Shown here in pieces: positions 49,825 through 55,407 of a stretch of DNA of 64,000 nt. Numbering within the stretch: position 1 is the stretch's first letter; every line of letters starts with the position of its first letter. Position numbers and translations under genes: made by a program. The notes below the pieces were generated by a model. It had not been told where the DNA came from and did not search any database. It was given only the letters and a program-made list of their open reading frames with translations. Source of the DNA: Desmonostoc muscorum LEGE 12446 (GTDB taxonomy: Bacteria > Cyanobacteriota > Cyanobacteriia > Cyanobacteriales > Nostocaceae); NCBI RefSeq assembly GCF_015207005.2, contig NZ_JADEXS020000001.1:2046001-2110000 (forward strand). The letters are read 5' to 3'.

Positions 49825-52356
49825 TTAATCTTCTCGACTTTTCTCCTGAAGAAGCGATCGCCAATCTGCAATTGCTTCTTCTGTCCATAGCCAATTTTTA
49901 GCTAATTTATCTACCTGGAAATTTACGCGATCGGACTTCATTACCATTTGTCGCAACTTTATCGCTTCATTCATATATTGTGCTTGTTTAGCACTAGATT
50001 CATCTAGTGCAGATTTATACAGTCCCAGAGCTAAACCAGCATAGGAAGTTAAAGCATCCTGAGGTAGTGCTGTGTTTGTGGATGCTGTGCTAGAAGCTGT
50101 ATTCTGTGGTTTGAGAGCTAAATTTAAAGCCTTGAACCAAGAATCATTAGCTCGATTCAAATTACCTTCTGCGTAGTAAGCAAATCCTAAAGCGTTATTA
50201 TACAAAAGCGAATCTGGTTTAGCTTTGGCGGCAGTTTCCCAGTAACGACGAGCATCATCAACGCTATAGTTATTGTCTCCAGTTTGGATCGATTGCCATG
50301 CTAATCGCCCCTTTAAAAAGTTGACAGATGGATCGTCAGCTTGCTTGTTTATAACTAGTTTCAAAGCAGTTTCAGCCGCAGCAAAGGCGCCACGATTGAG
50401 TAATTCTTCCACAGCAAACAACCCACCTTGCAAATCGCCTTGGCTCAATTTTTCAGTGGCGGTGGCGGTGACGATTCCAGTTGGTGCTGTTTCCAAATCG
50501 ATATTCGGTTGCTTTTCGATGGGTAAAGACTCGGAGGGAATTGGTGGTATCTTCGGTACAGTTGCCTGGGGTCGATTTTGCCACCACAAATTTAAACCGA
50601 TCGCAATTGCGATCGCACTCATTCCTACAATGCCAACAATCGGCGACAGCTTGCGCCGCCGGGTACGATTTCTAGATGGAGATGGGGTTGGTTGCGGCCG
50701 GAAAAAATCAGAATTTTCCCGATCTCTTTCTAAATTCCCAATAGTTTGAGGAGGTGGTGCTGGGACTTCTCCCCACAAATCTGCTTCTTCAAAAGAAGAA
50801 GTCATCTCTTCTGAAACCTGCCTATTTTGAAGACTATTTTCGTGATTTTGTTGCTCGGTTCCCGTGGAGCTTTTTTGCTCATCTAGTCGCCGAAACAAAT
50901 CGGAAACGATCGCAGAATCTTCTGCATAACTTGGGTCATCATACTCGATTTCATCAACGAGATCGCCCCAAGTATCTTCGCCTAGCCAATCCAAGCCAGA
51001 AGAGTCACGCCCCAAATCAGCAGGAATCATTTCCTCAATTCCTAAGGGCATCTCGGTATCATCTGCCATAGCAGCATACATGGAAGTGGGAATTGCTCCT
51101 AAAGGCGAACTATACTGATTGAGCGACTCTGGACTTTGGGGTAAACCAGTTTCGTGGCTAAGAAAACCGTCAAATTCGGGCTGGAGATACAAAATTGGTA
51201 ATGCCCAGTACATTTGGTGAGAACCATAGGCAGAAATTAATCCTTGGCGCACCCGACTCACGCATAAATCTACTGGATATCCCTGACTCAAGTTGCGGTA
51301 AAATAATTGCGTGAGTGTCAGTGCCACTTCATCAGGAATACGCTCTGACATAGCCAAAACACTGGCAATTCCTCGTTTCACCAGACTTTCTGCCAGGTTG
51401 CGTTCCCCAGTATCTCCAGAAGCTCCCAAGGCAGCTGTGTAAGCCCCTAAGCAGGAATTAAACACTGCCATCTGAATGTTATTGTTGACCAGCAAACCCG
51501 CCAAATCATCTCCAGTCAGAACTTCCGTTAACCCAGTTCTGCGACTAGCGAGATAAATTTCTCCGCCATTTGGGCCTAAGTTACTATGGCCAGAGTAGTG
51601 TAGAACCTGATATCTGCCTTGTTCTAGAGCCTGGGTTAGTTCTTCCCGTCCTGGTTGGTCTAACACAGTCAGTTCAATTTCTGGGAGATGATTGCTACCT
51701 TCAGCAAATCTTGGTACTGGACGCCCAAGTTCCGCTTGCAGTTTGATAGCTTCCTGTTTGAGCAAGTCAAGGCGGACTTGATCTAAAGGTGAAGCAATTA
51801 CCATCAATACTTTGACACCACTTTCTTCTAGTGGTGTGGGCATATTTGCCGTAGGCGTAGCCCCCCGCAGGGATCGCAAACGAGAACCGCCCAAAATTCC
51901 ACTTTGAAACCGAGAAAAAGCGACATAAGGTCCAGTGGCCAAAGGGCGATCGCCTGCGTGCATCACTTCCCAAGGCAAACGAGCTAACCTCGTCTCTTTC
52001 AGCCCCAAGCGTAAGCGGAGTACTTGTTGGTGATTTTGGGCAATACCTTGGGCAGTAATCCAACTATCTCTGAGAGTGCCTTGAAATAGTGCATTATATA
52101 ATTGTTGACCCAACGCCACCAAGTTCACAGAATTTCTCGCGATATCGCTTTCCCGCCCGCTAGAGGCGAATACATCTCCCTGTAACACCGACTTCAACGG
52201 GTCATTCATCAAATGCCCAGCAGCCATTAACCAATCAGCTACAGGCCAAGTTACCAATTCTTCTGCCAATGGCACCCCAGGCGCGACTTGTTCCGTCCGC
52301 ACCAAGTAGTCGTTTTGCCCTACTGGAGTTACGGATATGTGGAATTCCTGGGTCAC
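49825..52356 (-). CDS. hetF: HetF, CHAT-domain protein for heterocyst differentiation
   Basis: An 843-residue CHAT peptidase-like protein. The CHAT domain is N-terminal (about residues 80-420): His257 in LHYSGHSNLG and Cys302 in VFNSCLGAY. A variable acidic linker (about 430-590) leads to a transmembrane helix (about 602-618, LSPIVGIVGMSAIAIAIGLNLW) and C-terminal TPR-like repeats (about 660-800). This order matches HetF of Anabaena/Nostoc, which is required for heterocyst formation and controls the level of the regulator HetR. The start is GTG 52356 with GGAG 7-8 nt before it. The strongest support is the array of NsiR1-type RNA genes directly upstream, the known genomic setting of hetF. Confidence 0.92.
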   Translation of the reverse strand: MTQEFHISVTPVGQNDYLVRTEQVAPGVPLAEELVTWPVADWLMAAGHLMNDPLKSVLQGDVFASSGRESDIARNSVNLVALGQQLYNALFQGTLRDSWITAQGIAQNHQQVLRLRLGLKETRLARLPWEVMHAGDRPLATGPYVAFSRFQSGILGGSRLRSLRGATPTANMPTPLEESGVKVLMVIASPLDQVRLDLLKQEAIKLQAELGRPVPRFAEGSNHLPEIELTVLDQPGREELTQALEQGRYQVLHYSGHSNLGPNGGEIYLASRRTGLTEVLTGDDLAGLLVNNNIQMAVFNSCLGAYTAALGASGDTGERNLAESLVKRGIASVLAMSERIPDEVALTLTQLFYRNLSQGYPVDLCVSRVRQGLISAYGSHQMYWALPILYLQPEFDGFLSHETGLPQSPESLNQYSSPLGAIPTSMYAAMADDTEMPLGIEEMIPADLGRDSSGLDWLGEDTWGDLVDEIEYDDPSYAEDSAIVSDLFRRLDEQKSSTGTEQQNHENSLQNRQVSEEMTSSFEEADLWGEVPAPPPQTIGNLERDRENSDFFRPQPTPSPSRNRTRRRKLSPIVGIVGMSAIAIAIGLNLWWQNRPQATVPKIPPIPSESLPIEKQPNIDLETAPTGIVTATATEKLSQGDLQGGLFAVEELLNRGAFAAAETALKLVINKQADDPSVNFLKGRLAWQSIQTGDNNYSVDDARRYWETAAKAKPDSLLYNNALGFAYYAEGNLNRANDSWFKALNLALKPQNTASSTASTNTALPQDALTSYAGLALGLYKSALDESSAKQAQYMNEAIKLRQMVMKSDRVNFQVDKLAKNWLWTEEAIADWRSLLQEKSRED

Positions 52357-52501
52357 AGCTTCTCCTGTTCGCCTCCTAAATTCGGATTGAAACGCGAAAG
52401 TTTCAAGTCGATTTTTCGCTCCCTCTGATAACTTAGATGCATCCCACCCCTGAATGTTTCTGATTTTTAGTTGTTTTGCTTTTTCTACCTTTACAACTTT
52501 A

Positions 52502-52529
52502 TCCGGATTGGATTACTTGGGTCTAGAAC
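52502..52529 (+). promoter_or_regulatory. NsiR1 promoter, copy 1 (TCCGGA / TAGAAC)
   Basis: TCCGGA (52502-52507) and TAGAAC (52524-52529). The first box starts exactly 33 nt before the ATTGG start of the RNA gene, as in the other intact copies. It matches the TCCGGA -35 element of the promoter class active in differentiating cells (DIF+ class) described for Nostoc. Confidence 0.7.
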
Positions 52530-52534
52530 AGTTT

Positions 52535-52597
52535 ATTGGTAGATGCACCTTGATCTTCAACTCCCCTAGTCGGCTAACACCCACTGGGGGTTTTTTT
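52535..52597 (+). ncRNA. nsiR1: NsiR1-like small RNA, copy 1
   Basis: A 63-nt unit from ATTGGTAGATGCACC to the T-run. The terminator stem is CCCCTAGT against ACTGGGGG with seven T residues after it (52591-52597). Promoter boxes lie upstream at 52502 and 52524. It is the copy nearest to hetF and is read away from it, so it could overlap the hetF leader in antisense. NsiR1 is a nitrogen-stress-induced small RNA in Nostoc 7120; identity here is by sequence pattern and genome context. Confidence 0.85.
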
Positions 52598-53027
52598 ATT
52601 TTGGCAAACAACAGCAACTTCTAATATCAAGTTCGTGTGAACACTTATACTTAAAGCTAACACCCAGACACAAAGAAAAGTCGAAGAACCGACTTTCCGC
52701 CATCGGAACATCAGGAAATGTTCTGACGTAGAAAGTTTAAAACTATCAGTAATTAACCCTCTTTAATCACTTTTGGTAGATAAAAATCTAAAAGCCTTAT
52801 TTTTACGGACTTTTATGAATTTAGGTGTAGTAGGGGTTGAAGAACGAAACCCAACACCTAAAACCATTGGTTTTGTTCGGTTTCACTTCGTACCCCTGGG
52901 GGGAAGCAAGCTACAACCCAAACTACATTCATTTTTATTTTCCCAGACTGACACAAGAGGGTTAAACGAACTTGACATAACGCAGATATTCTCCACCAGA
53001 AAATAGTGCTTAACTTTAGAATACTTG

Positions 53028-53086
53028 ATTGGCAGATGGATGTACCTCGATCTTTAACTCCCTTAATTCCCTCAATATCCACTAGT
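53028..53086 (+). pseudogene. Decayed NsiR1-like copy 2
   Basis: ATTGGCAGATGGATGTACC and CTTTAACTCCCTTAATTCC match the RNA unit, but the terminator stem and T-run are lost and the -35 position reads TCCACC instead of TCCGGA (52992-52997). The -10 box TAGAAT (53017-53022) remains. Probably not expressed as a defined RNA. Confidence 0.7.
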
Positions 53087-53228
53087 ACAGCACGGCAAAA
53101 ATCTAAGTAGCATCTTTAATTAACCACATAAGCGGCTTCAGCCCCCGTCTTCAAGATAGGCAAACTTCCACGAAGGTGTACTAGTTTTTTCTTGAGACAA
53201 AACAATAATCAACTTTCTCGGAAATTTA

Positions 53229-53256
53229 TCCGGAGCATGATGATTAAACCTAGAAC
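53229..53256 (+). promoter_or_regulatory. NsiR1 promoter, copy 3 (TCCGGA / TAGAAC)
   Basis: TCCGGA at 53229-53234 and TAGAAC at 53251-53256, preceded by TTTA as in other copies (TTTATCCGGA). The RNA start ATTGG is at 53262. Confidence 0.7.
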
Positions 53257-53261
53257 ATTTA

Positions 53262-53325
53262 ATTGGTAGATGCACCCTGATAACTAGCTCCCCTGGTAAG
53301 CTAATAGCCACTGGGGGTTTTTTTT
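53262..53325 (+). ncRNA. nsiR1: NsiR1-like small RNA, copy 3
   Basis: A 64-nt unit with the shared 5' part ATTGGTAGATGCACCCTGAT. Stem CCCCTGGT/ACTGGGGG is followed by eight T. The loop differs from other copies (AAGCTAATAGCC). Confidence 0.85.
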
Positions 53326-53646
53326 ACTCATCAAACACCTATTTTTCAGGTAGCGCACTCATCATTGAATAATTGGTAGGTTTGACCGTACCGATTTGAG
53401 ATTTGAGATTTGAGATTTGAGATTAAAAATTATTTCAGTTCATGCCCGCGGTATTGGGCCGAACAAATCCAAAATTTAAAATCCGACCCTCCCAAGCGTT
53501 GCGTTAGGGACGCAGGAGCCTCTGATTCACTAACGCTGCGCTATCAGCCACATAACCTTGTGGTCTCTTTCAATCCAAAATCGGTAATCCTTGTTGAAAA
53601 GTTCGATCTAAGGCTTCCTTAGATCAAACTTTTCGCAAAATTCAAA

Positions 53647-53705
53647 ATTGCTTGACCTGATAACTAACCCCTCTGATTGGCTAACACCTGTTGAGAGTTT
53701 TTTTT
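53647..53705 (+). pseudogene. Decayed NsiR1-like copy 4
   Basis: CCTGATAACTAACCCCTCTG and ATTGGCTAACACCTGTTGAG follow the family, but the 5' part is short, the stem now reads CTCT/AGAG in a shifted register, and neither TCCGGA nor TAGAA is present upstream (CAAAAT at the -10 position). A run of T residues is kept. Confidence 0.7.
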
Positions 53706-53747
53706 CTGGTAAACAAACAACAACAATCTCAACTTCTGCATAATTTA

Positions 53748-53775
53748 TCCGGTCGATAGCCATTAACTTGAGAAA
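53748..53775 (+). promoter_or_regulatory. NsiR1 promoter, copy 5 (TCCGGT / GAGAAA)
   Basis: TCCGGT at 53748-53753, a one-base variant of TCCGGA, and GAGAAA at 53770-53775. Spacing is 33 nt to the RNA start at 53781, as in the other intact copies. Confidence 0.6.
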
Positions 53776-53780
53776 ACATA

Positions 53781-53845
53781 ATTGGTAGATGCACCCTGAT
53801 AACTCAACTCCCCTGGTTGGCTAACACCCACTGGGGGTTTTTTTT
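53781..53845 (+). ncRNA. nsiR1: NsiR1-like small RNA, copy 5
   Basis: A 65-nt unit, ATTGGTAGATGCACCCTGAT at the 5' end, stem CCCCTGGT/ACTGGGGG, then eight T. It differs from copy 7 mainly by CTCAACTC for CTAACTC. Confidence 0.85.
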
Positions 53846-54063
53846 AGTTGGAAGCATTGAACAATTTTAGATTTTAGATTTTGGATTAGGGTTTTCCGGT
53901 TGAGAGCAACATCGCTTGTGGATAAAAGACATCTCAAACCGACAATCTAAAATCCTCAGGGTACAATTACCATTGTGCTTGGAGTGAATCTAAAAGACGC
54001 TCGCCAAATCCCTAACGCTACGCTGTCGGCAATTCGAAATCTTGTTAGAGCTTGAGCATTTTC

Positions 54064-54091
54064 TCCGGAAAATAGTGGCTGCCCCTAGAAA
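54064..54091 (+). promoter_or_regulatory. NsiR1 promoter, copy 6 (TCCGGA / TAGAAA)
   Basis: TCCGGA at 54064-54069 and TAGAAA at 54086-54091, again 33 nt from the first box to the RNA start at 54097. Confidence 0.7.
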
Positions 54092-54096
54092 ACATA

Positions 54097-54158
54097 ATTG
54101 GTAGATGCACCCTGATAACTCACTCCCCTAGTAGGCTAACACCAACTGGGGTTTTTTT
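54097..54158 (+). ncRNA. nsiR1: NsiR1-like small RNA, copy 6
   Basis: A 62-nt unit; stem CCCCTAGT against ACTGGGG with one G fewer, followed by seven T. Other parts match the family (AATTGGTAGATGCACCCTGA). Confidence 0.83.
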
Positions 54159-54192
54159 ATTTTAAAAAATAACTGACCTTTGTACAAATTTA

Positions 54193-54220
54193 TCCGGAGT
54201 ATGGTGTTCAACGTCAGAAC
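54193..54220 (+). promoter_or_regulatory. NsiR1 promoter, copy 7 (TCCGGA / CAGAAC)
   Basis: TTTATCCGGA ends at 54198 with TCCGGA at 54193-54198; CAGAAC at 54215-54220. The RNA start is at 54226, 33 nt from the first base of TCCGGA. Confidence 0.7.
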
Positions 54221-54225
54221 ATTTA

Positions 54226-54288
54226 ATTGGTAGATGCACCCTGATAACTAACTCCCCTGGTTGGCTAACACCCACTGGGGGTTTTTTT
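54226..54288 (+). ncRNA. nsiR1: NsiR1-like small RNA, copy 7
   Basis: A 63-nt unit, the most distant from hetF. Stem CCCCTGGT/ACTGGGGG with seven T. It can be taken as the consensus form of the array. Confidence 0.85.
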
Positions 54289-54863
54289 ATGCCTAGATGC
54301 GTCGGAGCTTGTTGTTAGACATCACTAGTCTCTATAATCTGCCTACATAGCCAGAATGCACCTTGTTACTACTGGTGGTAGACCTTGAGTATCTCCTTGT
54401 TGCCAGTATAGAGCAAAACCTGGTCACTCAATCCCTGAATCGCTTTCTTTTTATTGTCACGTACAGAGGCAACTCTAAAATGATTGCTATGATATTTAAT
54501 CACATTCTTAAGTTTTTTTCTAGATTCCTACTTTCTCATTCCTAGACTAGTAAAGAATTGGGCATGGGGCACGATGCAGGGGAGAAGACTCTGTTCCCTG
54601 TTTCCTGCTCCTCTGCCTCCCCTACCCTCACAAGTGTAGGTTTTTCACATTCAGTCTGAAAAAGCCCATTTTTTCGTTCCGAAATCTTTCCCCGCGTCTC
54701 CCCGTCTTTGCGTCGATCAAAACGCGAAATCTAAAAAACCTACACCTGTCAGTCTCCCCTACCTCCCTCATCCCCTTTTTGTTGACATTAATAACACGCT
54801 ATATGGTATATTTCATGGCGTTATGCTAAGATGTCTAGCCTAAAACCAAAGAGTTGCCAACCG
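54289..54863. other. Region between NsiR1 array and thioredoxin-like gene
   Basis: About 575 nt. A 60-codon plus-strand frame (54363-54545) has no ribosome site or recognisable content. From about 54550 to 54780 there is low-complexity C/T-rich DNA with a distant inverted pair (AAGTGTAGGTTTTTCA / AAAAAACCTACACCTG). TATGGTATAT near 54802 could be a -10 region for the thioredoxin-like gene. Confidence 0.5.
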
Positions 54864-55187
54864 ATGAGTTTAGCTGTAATTAAGTTCTCTTCTGAAGAGT
54901 GCGGCATCTGCCACAAAATGTCTTTTTATGACAAAAAGGTGGCGGAAGAACTGGGTTTAGAATTTATCGACGTGAAAATGCAGGATACAGCTGCTTACCG
55001 CAAGTATCGCAAGATTTTATTGACTCAGTATCCTGATAAATCAGAAATGGGATGGCCTACCTACATCGTTTGCAATTCTCCAGAAGGAGAATTTCAGATT
55101 GTGGGTGAGGTGAAAGGAGGTCATCCCAAAGGGGAATTTAGAAGCCGTCTCCAAGAGGTTCTAGATTCTGCATCTAGTCAGAATTAA
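54864..55187 (+). CDS. Thioredoxin-like protein (CGIC motif)
   Basis: From ATG 54864 (MSLAVIKFSSEECGICHKMS) it has 107 residues; ATG 54831 would add 11. The thioredoxin-fold active site is C-G-I-C at residues 13-16, at the end of the first strand (LAVIKFSSEE). Downstream come VKMQDTAAYRKYRKILLTQY and the cis-proline strand GWPTYIVCNSPEGEFQIVGEVKGGHPKGEF. It is likely a cytoplasmic redox or disulfide-exchange protein. The stop codon region overlaps the convergent 77-residue gene by 14 nt. No partner is evident. Confidence 0.85.
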   Translation: MSLAVIKFSSEECGICHKMSFYDKKVAEELGLEFIDVKMQDTAAYRKYRKILLTQYPDKSEMGWPTYIVCNSPEGEFQIVGEVKGGHPKGEFRSRLQEVLDSASSQN

Positions 55188-55407
55188 TTACCTCAAAAGA
55201 TTTAACCTCCAGGACAGGGCCAATCATGGCAGCTGTCATGACATCTTCACGCACCTGTCCTTTAACTTTTGCTTTTTGTCCAGCTTTAAGTAATTCTTTA
55301 TCAGCCCCTCTGAGGATTTCGTAAGTATCGCCGTCTTCTGTAACTAATGCCCATGCACCCGGGCCAATATCACGGTGTTGAATTGTACCTGTAAGTGTAA
55401 TGCTCAT
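55174..55407 (-). CDS. Small conserved beta-rich protein (77 aa)
   Basis: A 77-residue protein from ATG 55407 (MSITLTGTIQHRDIGPGAWALVTEDGDTYEILRGADKELLKAGQKAKVKGQVREDVMTAAMIGPVLEVKSFEVI). Alternating strands and GxW/GxK turns suggest an OB-like or small beta-barrel fold. Similar small proteins are common in cyanobacteria, with no known function. It converges on the thioredoxin-like gene with a 14-nt overlap of coding regions (55174-55187). Confidence 0.72.
   Translation of the reverse strand: MSITLTGTIQHRDIGPGAWALVTEDGDTYEILRGADKELLKAGQKAKVKGQVREDVMTAAMIGPVLEVKSFEVINSD

Follow-up and report, generated by a model that had tools for sequence, protein, structure and literature searches.

In Nostoc sp. 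PCC 7120, 12 copies of the small RNA NsiR1 lie upstream of hetF, and PMC9045159 describes them as DIF1-driven and HetR-dependent. According to the same source, NsiR1.1 is antisense to the hetF leader, NsiR1.1 and NsiR1.4 repress hetF and alr3234, and the repression of alr3234 by NsiR1.4 occurs in trans. The DIF1 box is defined as TCCGGA in PMC6133370, and PMC8406250 places the hetF start site of PCC 7120 at -256, inside nsiR1.2. An NsiR1 array of the same kind has already been published for Nodularia (PMC3610870). Here, we analysed a stretch of 64,000 nucleotides (nt) of Desmonostoc muscorum LEGE 12446 (contig NZ_JADEXS020000001.1, positions 2,046,001 to 2,110,000), referred to below as the window, which carries an array of small RNA genes beside hetF, together with related RNAs elsewhere in this genome and in other cyanobacteria. 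The results suggest that the array is very probably an NsiR1 locus forming one branch of an older, HetR-linked RNA family, which has a sibling between lgt and cobM and whose hetF-side copies were multiplied in heterocyst formers.

The NsiR1 array beside hetF

The region at positions 51800-55200 of the window was read closely, and repeats, open reading frames (ORFs) and Rfam matches were computed on and around the array. An initial annotation, made from the letters of the window, had proposed seven copies in the same orientation, five intact and two decaying. This count was confirmed by the repeats and by Rfam, copy 2 being visible as a repeat only. The features are as follows.

49825..52356, - strand: hetF, coding for a CHAT-domain protein of 843 amino acids with a GTG start (ORF; Pfam CHAT, 2.9e-26)
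52502..52598, + strand: nsiR1 copy 1; TCCGGA box at 52502-52507, RNA at about 52537-52598; 65.7 bits with RF02399
about 52996..53075, + strand: nsiR1 copy 2, decayed; CCAG box, without T-run and without Rfam match
53229..53325, + strand: nsiR1 copy 3; TCCGGA box at 53229-53234, RNA at about 53264-53325; 64.9 bits
53653..53705, + strand: nsiR1 copy 4, decayed, without box or 5' end but with its terminator; 26.8 bits (E 0.021), below the cut-off of 39
53748..53845, + strand: nsiR1 copy 5; TCCGGT box (one change), RNA at about 53783-53845; 74.7 bits
54064..54160, + strand: nsiR1 copy 6; TCCGGA box, RNA at about 54099-54160; 67.8 bits
54193..54289, + strand: nsiR1 copy 7; TCCGGA box, RNA at about 54228-54289; 75.3 bits; 129 nt after copy 6

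The Rfam covariance model of NsiR1 (RF02399, gathering cut-off 39 bits) recognised five of the seven copies in the window, all of them full-length, on the + strand and with scores of 64.9-75.3 bits, and the proposed identity of the unit was thereby borne out. The intact units are 62-63 nt long and all five differ from one another in sequence. A combined pattern of promoter and RNA, TCCGG-N30..32-TGGTAGATGCACC, has exactly five matches in the 64 kb and none in 100 shuffles. The -35 box of every intact copy contains TCCGG at a near-fixed spacing, reading TCCGGA in four copies and TCCGGT in the copy with its RNA at 53783, in agreement with the proposal that each intact copy has its own promoter, here of the DIF1 type; an own terminator for each intact copy, likewise proposed, was also found. 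The position of the array beside and divergent from hetF was supported by the ORF, by the Pfam CHAT match and by the relatives, in which hetF matches of 59-100% identity stand beside NsiR1 units, most same-genus loci included. We therefore regard it as near certain that the window array is NsiR1, and as such it is a further instance of a system already published, as expected in a Nostoc.

As compared with NsiR1 of PCC 7120, the array has in common the covariance-model family, the length, the divergent position by hetF, a DIF1-type promoter and a terminator for each copy, and probably the placement of copy 1 within the predicted hetF leader. It differs in copy number, with five intact and two decayed, unevenly spaced copies in the host against 12 in PCC 7120, and in sequence, as seven copies are identical in PCC 7120 according to the published account whereas all five intact host copies differ. 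As copy 1 covers the stretch 181-242 nt ahead of the hetF start codon and the start site in PCC 7120 is at -256, copy 1 is likely antisense to the predicted hetF leader, with an overlap as in PCC 7120. With a hetF leader assumed, after PCC 7120, to span -256 to +13, the 5' 24 nt of 10/10 host-genome RNAs tested were found to pair with it better than with any of 200 shuffled leaders, a result that follows from the likeness of the ten RNAs to copy 1 and is not an independent proof.

The shortest copy-to-copy spacing in the array is 129 nt (54099 to 54228), with decayed copies and other DNA occupying the larger gaps. Relatives such as G001 and G009 also show spacings of 128-129 nt, suggesting that the wider gaps of the window probably arose from decay and inserted DNA. 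Between copies 1 and 2, at 52753-52965, lies a mobile-element-like stretch with 35-nt imperfect inverted ends that are 77% complementary, which may account for some of the extra distance between copies.

An NsiR1-type RNA between lgt and cobM

A search of the host's own genome with RF02399 gave one further match over the cut-off, at C1:4953899 (51.5 bits), between genes that we named lgt and cobM, like exoD, gatB and argJ below, by reading ORF translations. As this RNA lies between lgt and cobM and not by hetF, it was filed as an NsiR1-type paralogue distinct from the hetF-side NsiR1. The host lgt and cobM are 100% and 99% identical to those of Nostoc sp. FACHB-973 (locus L154). In BLAST searches the RNA was found in 22/22 same-genus relatives, and weaker matches appeared in other genera. 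A strict pattern, consisting of the CCGG box and the 16-nt 5' end, both fixed, had one match per genome in 141 of the 145 genomes of the host's family, representing 56/56 genera, while a reversed-pattern control gave 0. The same pattern occurred in 29 of 388 genomes of the class, all 29 in the host's order, and in at least 117 stretches of named GTDB contigs.

The gene place of the RNA was assessed in 105 loci, namely 80 of the at least 117 stretches and 25 loci from the BLAST search. Both lgt and cobM were present in 89 of these loci and one of them in 12, some of which end at the edge of a contig or stretch; four had neither. The cobM gene is head-to-head with the RNA, its match starting about 72-196 nt upstream of the RNA except in L197 (581 nt). 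All 14 sources outside the family that were examined with Rfam contained at least one unit over the cut-off, with best units at 41.1-56.4 bits; among them, L284 has lgt and no cobM match, and L153 and L145 have cobM only. An alignment of 39 of the 93 distinct sequences was used to analyse covariation. The terminator stem showed 90.9% paired cells and changes on both sides in seven of nine pairs, and the cells with both-side changes numbered 32 as compared with 10.0 in shuffles, above slid versions too. We have high confidence that the RNA between lgt and cobM is a genuine gene of ancient origin. Between cobM and lgt, four and five tandem copies were found in two genomes outside the family (L289, L290), one of which is Coleofasciculus sp. 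LEGE 07092.

Two published RNAs come close to this family. RNA162 of Limnospira indica PCC 8005, a strain without heterocysts, is 57 nt long and NsiR1-like per its authors; the accessible part of PMC8400943 gives no position in the genome and draws no tie to lgt-cobM or to a wider family. In PCC 7120, a predicted 51-nt small RNA, 4547237r, is near in length to the lgt-cobM RNA (about 50 nt) and conserved in heterocystous strains (PMC4734099); it is not called NsiR1-like in the accessible part of that source, and the two may be the same RNA. The literature searched, which did not include the central NsiR1 papers, contained no account of an NsiR1-type RNA at the lgt-cobM place or of the distribution reported here; absence from print is not established thereby. 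Many of these RNAs may already be listed in databases as NsiR1, since they are recognised by the covariance model.

Occurrence in non-heterocystous cyanobacteria and association with HetR

The initial annotation had held that the array strongly marks its host as heterocyst-forming. This claim did not stand, as Oscillatoria acuminata PCC 6304 and Crinalium epipsammum PCC 9333, strains known as non-heterocystous, have both hetF-linked units and lgt-cobM copies. Stretches with the strict lgt-cobM pattern include, among the matches listed, Planktothrix, Microcoleus, Moorena, Coleofasciculus, Laspinema, Symplocastrum, Microseira, Lyngbya aestuarii and Spirulina subsalsa, all of them known as non-heterocystous as well. 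Because units also occur in such cyanobacteria, the presence of NsiR1 cannot safely be taken as a sign of heterocyst formation.

To describe the hetF side outside the family, 30 genomes were picked by hand. HetF was found in 29, and 25 of the 29 hetF loci had at least 600 nt readable upstream, the other four being left out. One or more NsiR1 units divergent from hetF were present upstream in 14 of the 25, among them Crinalium epipsammum PCC 9333, Oscillatoria acuminata PCC 6304 and Allocoleopsis franciscana PCC 7113. A CCGG box accompanied the unit in 12 of these 14 genomes, and one of the two that lacked it (G030) has no HetR_C match. In 29 loci found by Rfam score alone (L035-L063), CCGG stood 33-37 nt upstream in 126/136 units.

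The HetR_C domain (PF18460) was detected in 163 of the 291 genomes of the order. The strict lgt-cobM pattern occurred in 105 of the 291. HetR is present in 104 of these, the sole exception being an incomplete genome (89%). When a 15-nt RNA core was sought with no promoter demand, it was found in 178/291 genomes, namely 157/163 with HetR and 21/128 without it (Fisher p 1e-49, uncorrected for descent), and the reversed core in two genomes. These counts were cross-tabulated from per-genome rows; the 21 HetR-less genomes with the core and the six HetR-bearing genomes without it were read by eye and were consistent with the tally of 178. Among the 21, one (G672) lacks the terminator and is perhaps a chance match, and 17 belong to two families (L328-L344). 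The boxes in these families are mostly TCCCGAT or TCCTGAT in one and GCGGAA in the other.

Copy number also varies. Same-genus loci have four to seven units in about 3 kb beside hetF, and hetF loci outside the family mostly have one or two, with four in G030. Multiplication beside hetF is thus typical of the family in the loci seen and is not unique to it as a process.

Other NsiR1-type units in the host genome

Two further places in the host genome carry weaker units.

C1:5155604-5155965 (L011 1501-1905): exoD-side array (locus B) of three units; 36.6, 31.9 and 23.2 bits, all below the cut-off of 39
C1:5203281-5203334 (L010 1501-1554): single weak unit (locus C) between gatB and argJ; 26.6 bits

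The exoD-side array lies beside an exoD-like gene and has a period of 148 nt. Its DNA matched 22/22 same-genus relatives and 0/16 genomes of other genera. The gatB-argJ unit has the common 5' box, a different hairpin and no clear CCGG box. All three loci, lgt-cobM, exoD-side and gatB-argJ, have the 5' box GUAGAUGCAC in common with NsiR1 and differ in their terminators; a CCGG box at NsiR1 spacing is found in the lgt-cobM unit and in two of the three exoD-side units. Other GTAGATGCAC sites of the host genome (L013-L034) were considered as RNA genes and rejected, as they lack a CCGG box at NsiR1 spacing plus a terminator. The lower RF02399 matches in the host genome were taken as probably due to chance; the same search gave sub-cut-off matches in 13/14 control genomes as well.

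Proposed function and origin

We propose that, under nitrogen starvation, each intact copy would fire from its own DIF1-type promoter in cells becoming heterocysts, and would yield one RNA of about 62 nt ending at its own terminator. Copy 1, being antisense to the expected hetF leader, would repress hetF translation in cis, and the other copies, which have the 5' box UGGUAGAUGCACC in common, could pair with the same leader stretch and with other mRNAs in trans. From the common 5' box, hetF-type targets are a first guess for the lgt-cobM RNA. The proposal joins the sequence, structure, promoter boxes, synteny and distribution observed here to expression, HetR dependence and repression of hetF and alr3234 as given in the PCC 7120 papers; we infer that the host copies, the lgt-cobM RNA and the copies of non-heterocystous strains would be transcribed and act alike, and we infer the order of events below.

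The RNA family, of which the lgt-cobM RNA would be a separate member with orthologues in heterocystous and several non-heterocystous cyanobacteria, would have stood in a HetR-linked circuit before heterocysts, its hetF-side copies being multiplied later in heterocyst formers. Judged from distribution alone, a role of the family in the HetR circuit is likely to predate heterocysts, and NsiR1 is probably older than heterocysts. A fuller hypothesis, which we consider reasonably probable though well short of assured, is that NsiR1 is a dispersed family of a pre-heterocyst HetR-HetF circuit with two ancient homes, one divergent from hetF and one between lgt and cobM. The hetF-side copy would have been multiplied into an array by heterocyst formers, and the lgt-cobM RNA would be a separate sibling that has been overlooked, with one copy in almost every heterocyst former sampled and four to five tandem copies in some genomes outside the family.

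Several results weigh against the proposal as a whole. Regarding the units themselves, a generic terminator scan flagged 0/5 array terminators, a generic sigma-70 scan placed one site adjoining a unit, the counts of both scans were not clearly above shuffles, and the folding energy of 4/5 window copies was no better than that of shuffles; the two scans are uninformative and single-unit folding energies are weak evidence. Terminator hairpins alone would covary, and as the search pattern itself prescribed the 5' box of the lgt-cobM loci, the conservation of this box there is partly a matter of construction. In four of the 105 loci, neither lgt nor cobM was seen although more than 4 kb was readable on one side, indicating that synteny is truly broken there or that the unit is another one. 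With respect to hetF, 11 of the 25 readable loci outside the family have no unit, and four of the 14 positives (G026, G030, G033, G036) were known before picking, leaving 10/21 without them. Whole-genome core counts reach 9-11 in some genomes outside the family (G610, G677, G721, G724, G726), and three of 29 family genomes (G051, G072, G519) have a single exact core match, of the lgt-cobM type; these three may have kept the other copy while the hetF-side array was lost or diverged. As for HetR, 59 of the 163 genomes bearing it lack the strict lgt-cobM pattern, and the co-occurrence is uncorrected for phylogeny. The core is kept in the 21/128 genomes with no HetR_C match, so that the RNA does not strictly require HetR, and CCGG is present in only two of the 26 units (L337, L338) of the two HetR-less families.

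These last results bear on an alternative that we regard as possible but less likely than the main proposal, namely that TCCGGA serves some sigma factor as a general -35 element and does not mark the HetR circuit, the co-occurrence with HetR being due to common descent of the filamentous lineages. In its favour, the RNA persists in HetR-less genomes, where two units have CCGG and most of the remainder carry TCCCGAT, TCCTGAT or GCGGAA in that position, and the association is uncorrected for descent. Moreover, DIF1 promoters are reported to require HetZ, directly or indirectly (PMC11298460, PMC7377430), those of hetR and patS being named in PMC7377430, and HetR may therefore act indirectly. However, NsiR1 is HetR-dependent in PCC 7120 (PMC9045159), and within the order the core is found in nearly all genomes with HetR as compared with about one in six of those without it.

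Two other explanations appear to us less probable still. The units might work solely in cis, as antisense RNAs to the gene that they face head-to-head (hetF or cobM), and not in trans, which would agree with copy 1 being antisense to the expected hetF leader and with the head-to-head arrangement of the lgt-cobM RNA and cobM. We consider this unlikely, since NsiR1.4 represses alr3234 in trans in PCC 7120 (PMC9045159), the array copies beyond copy 1 overlap no listed ORF of at least 80 amino acids, and the 5' box is common to loci with different neighbours. Least probable in our estimation is that the array is ordinary NsiR1 from which the lgt-cobM and other units were recently copied, as stray duplicates lacking any function of their own. 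The 5' box, and mostly the promoter box, are common to these units and the array. Among 39 genomes, moreover, the exoD-side array occurs in this genus only, and it falls below the Rfam cut-off, as young or drifting copies would. The lgt-cobM RNA, however, has kept its promoter box in all 56 family genera, and its gene place and own stem both within and outside the family, which a recent duplicate would not have done.

The role of HetR and PatX in filamentous cyanobacteria without heterocysts has been called a mystery (PMC11298460). If our hypothesis is true, a small RNA of the HetR-circuit type that such strains keep in one fixed position among their genes would serve as a direct and cheap reporter as well as a candidate effector, the lgt-cobM RNA would give a ready readout of HetR action there, and the use of NsiR1 as a marker of cell differentiation would change. 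The two HetR-less families that keep the RNA are natural cases for finding what reads the box. Depletion of NsiR1 by antisense RNA was used in PMC9045159, and the lgt-cobM RNA, having the same 5' box, is a further player to weigh in such experiments.

Neighbouring and minor features

Beyond the array lies a small ORF, a homologue of which is found near NsiR1 units in relatives, some of them outside the family (L059, L060, L357, L366).

54831..55187, + strand: ORF of 118 amino acids without Pfam match

A plasmid of Allocoleopsis franciscana PCC 7113 carries an extra NsiR1-type unit with a CCGG box (L297 6019, - strand). The strict lgt-cobM pattern was also found on contigs titled Alphaproteobacteria and Lewinella (L218, L234), which were left out of the synteny test and are probably mis-binned or mis-titled draft genomes.

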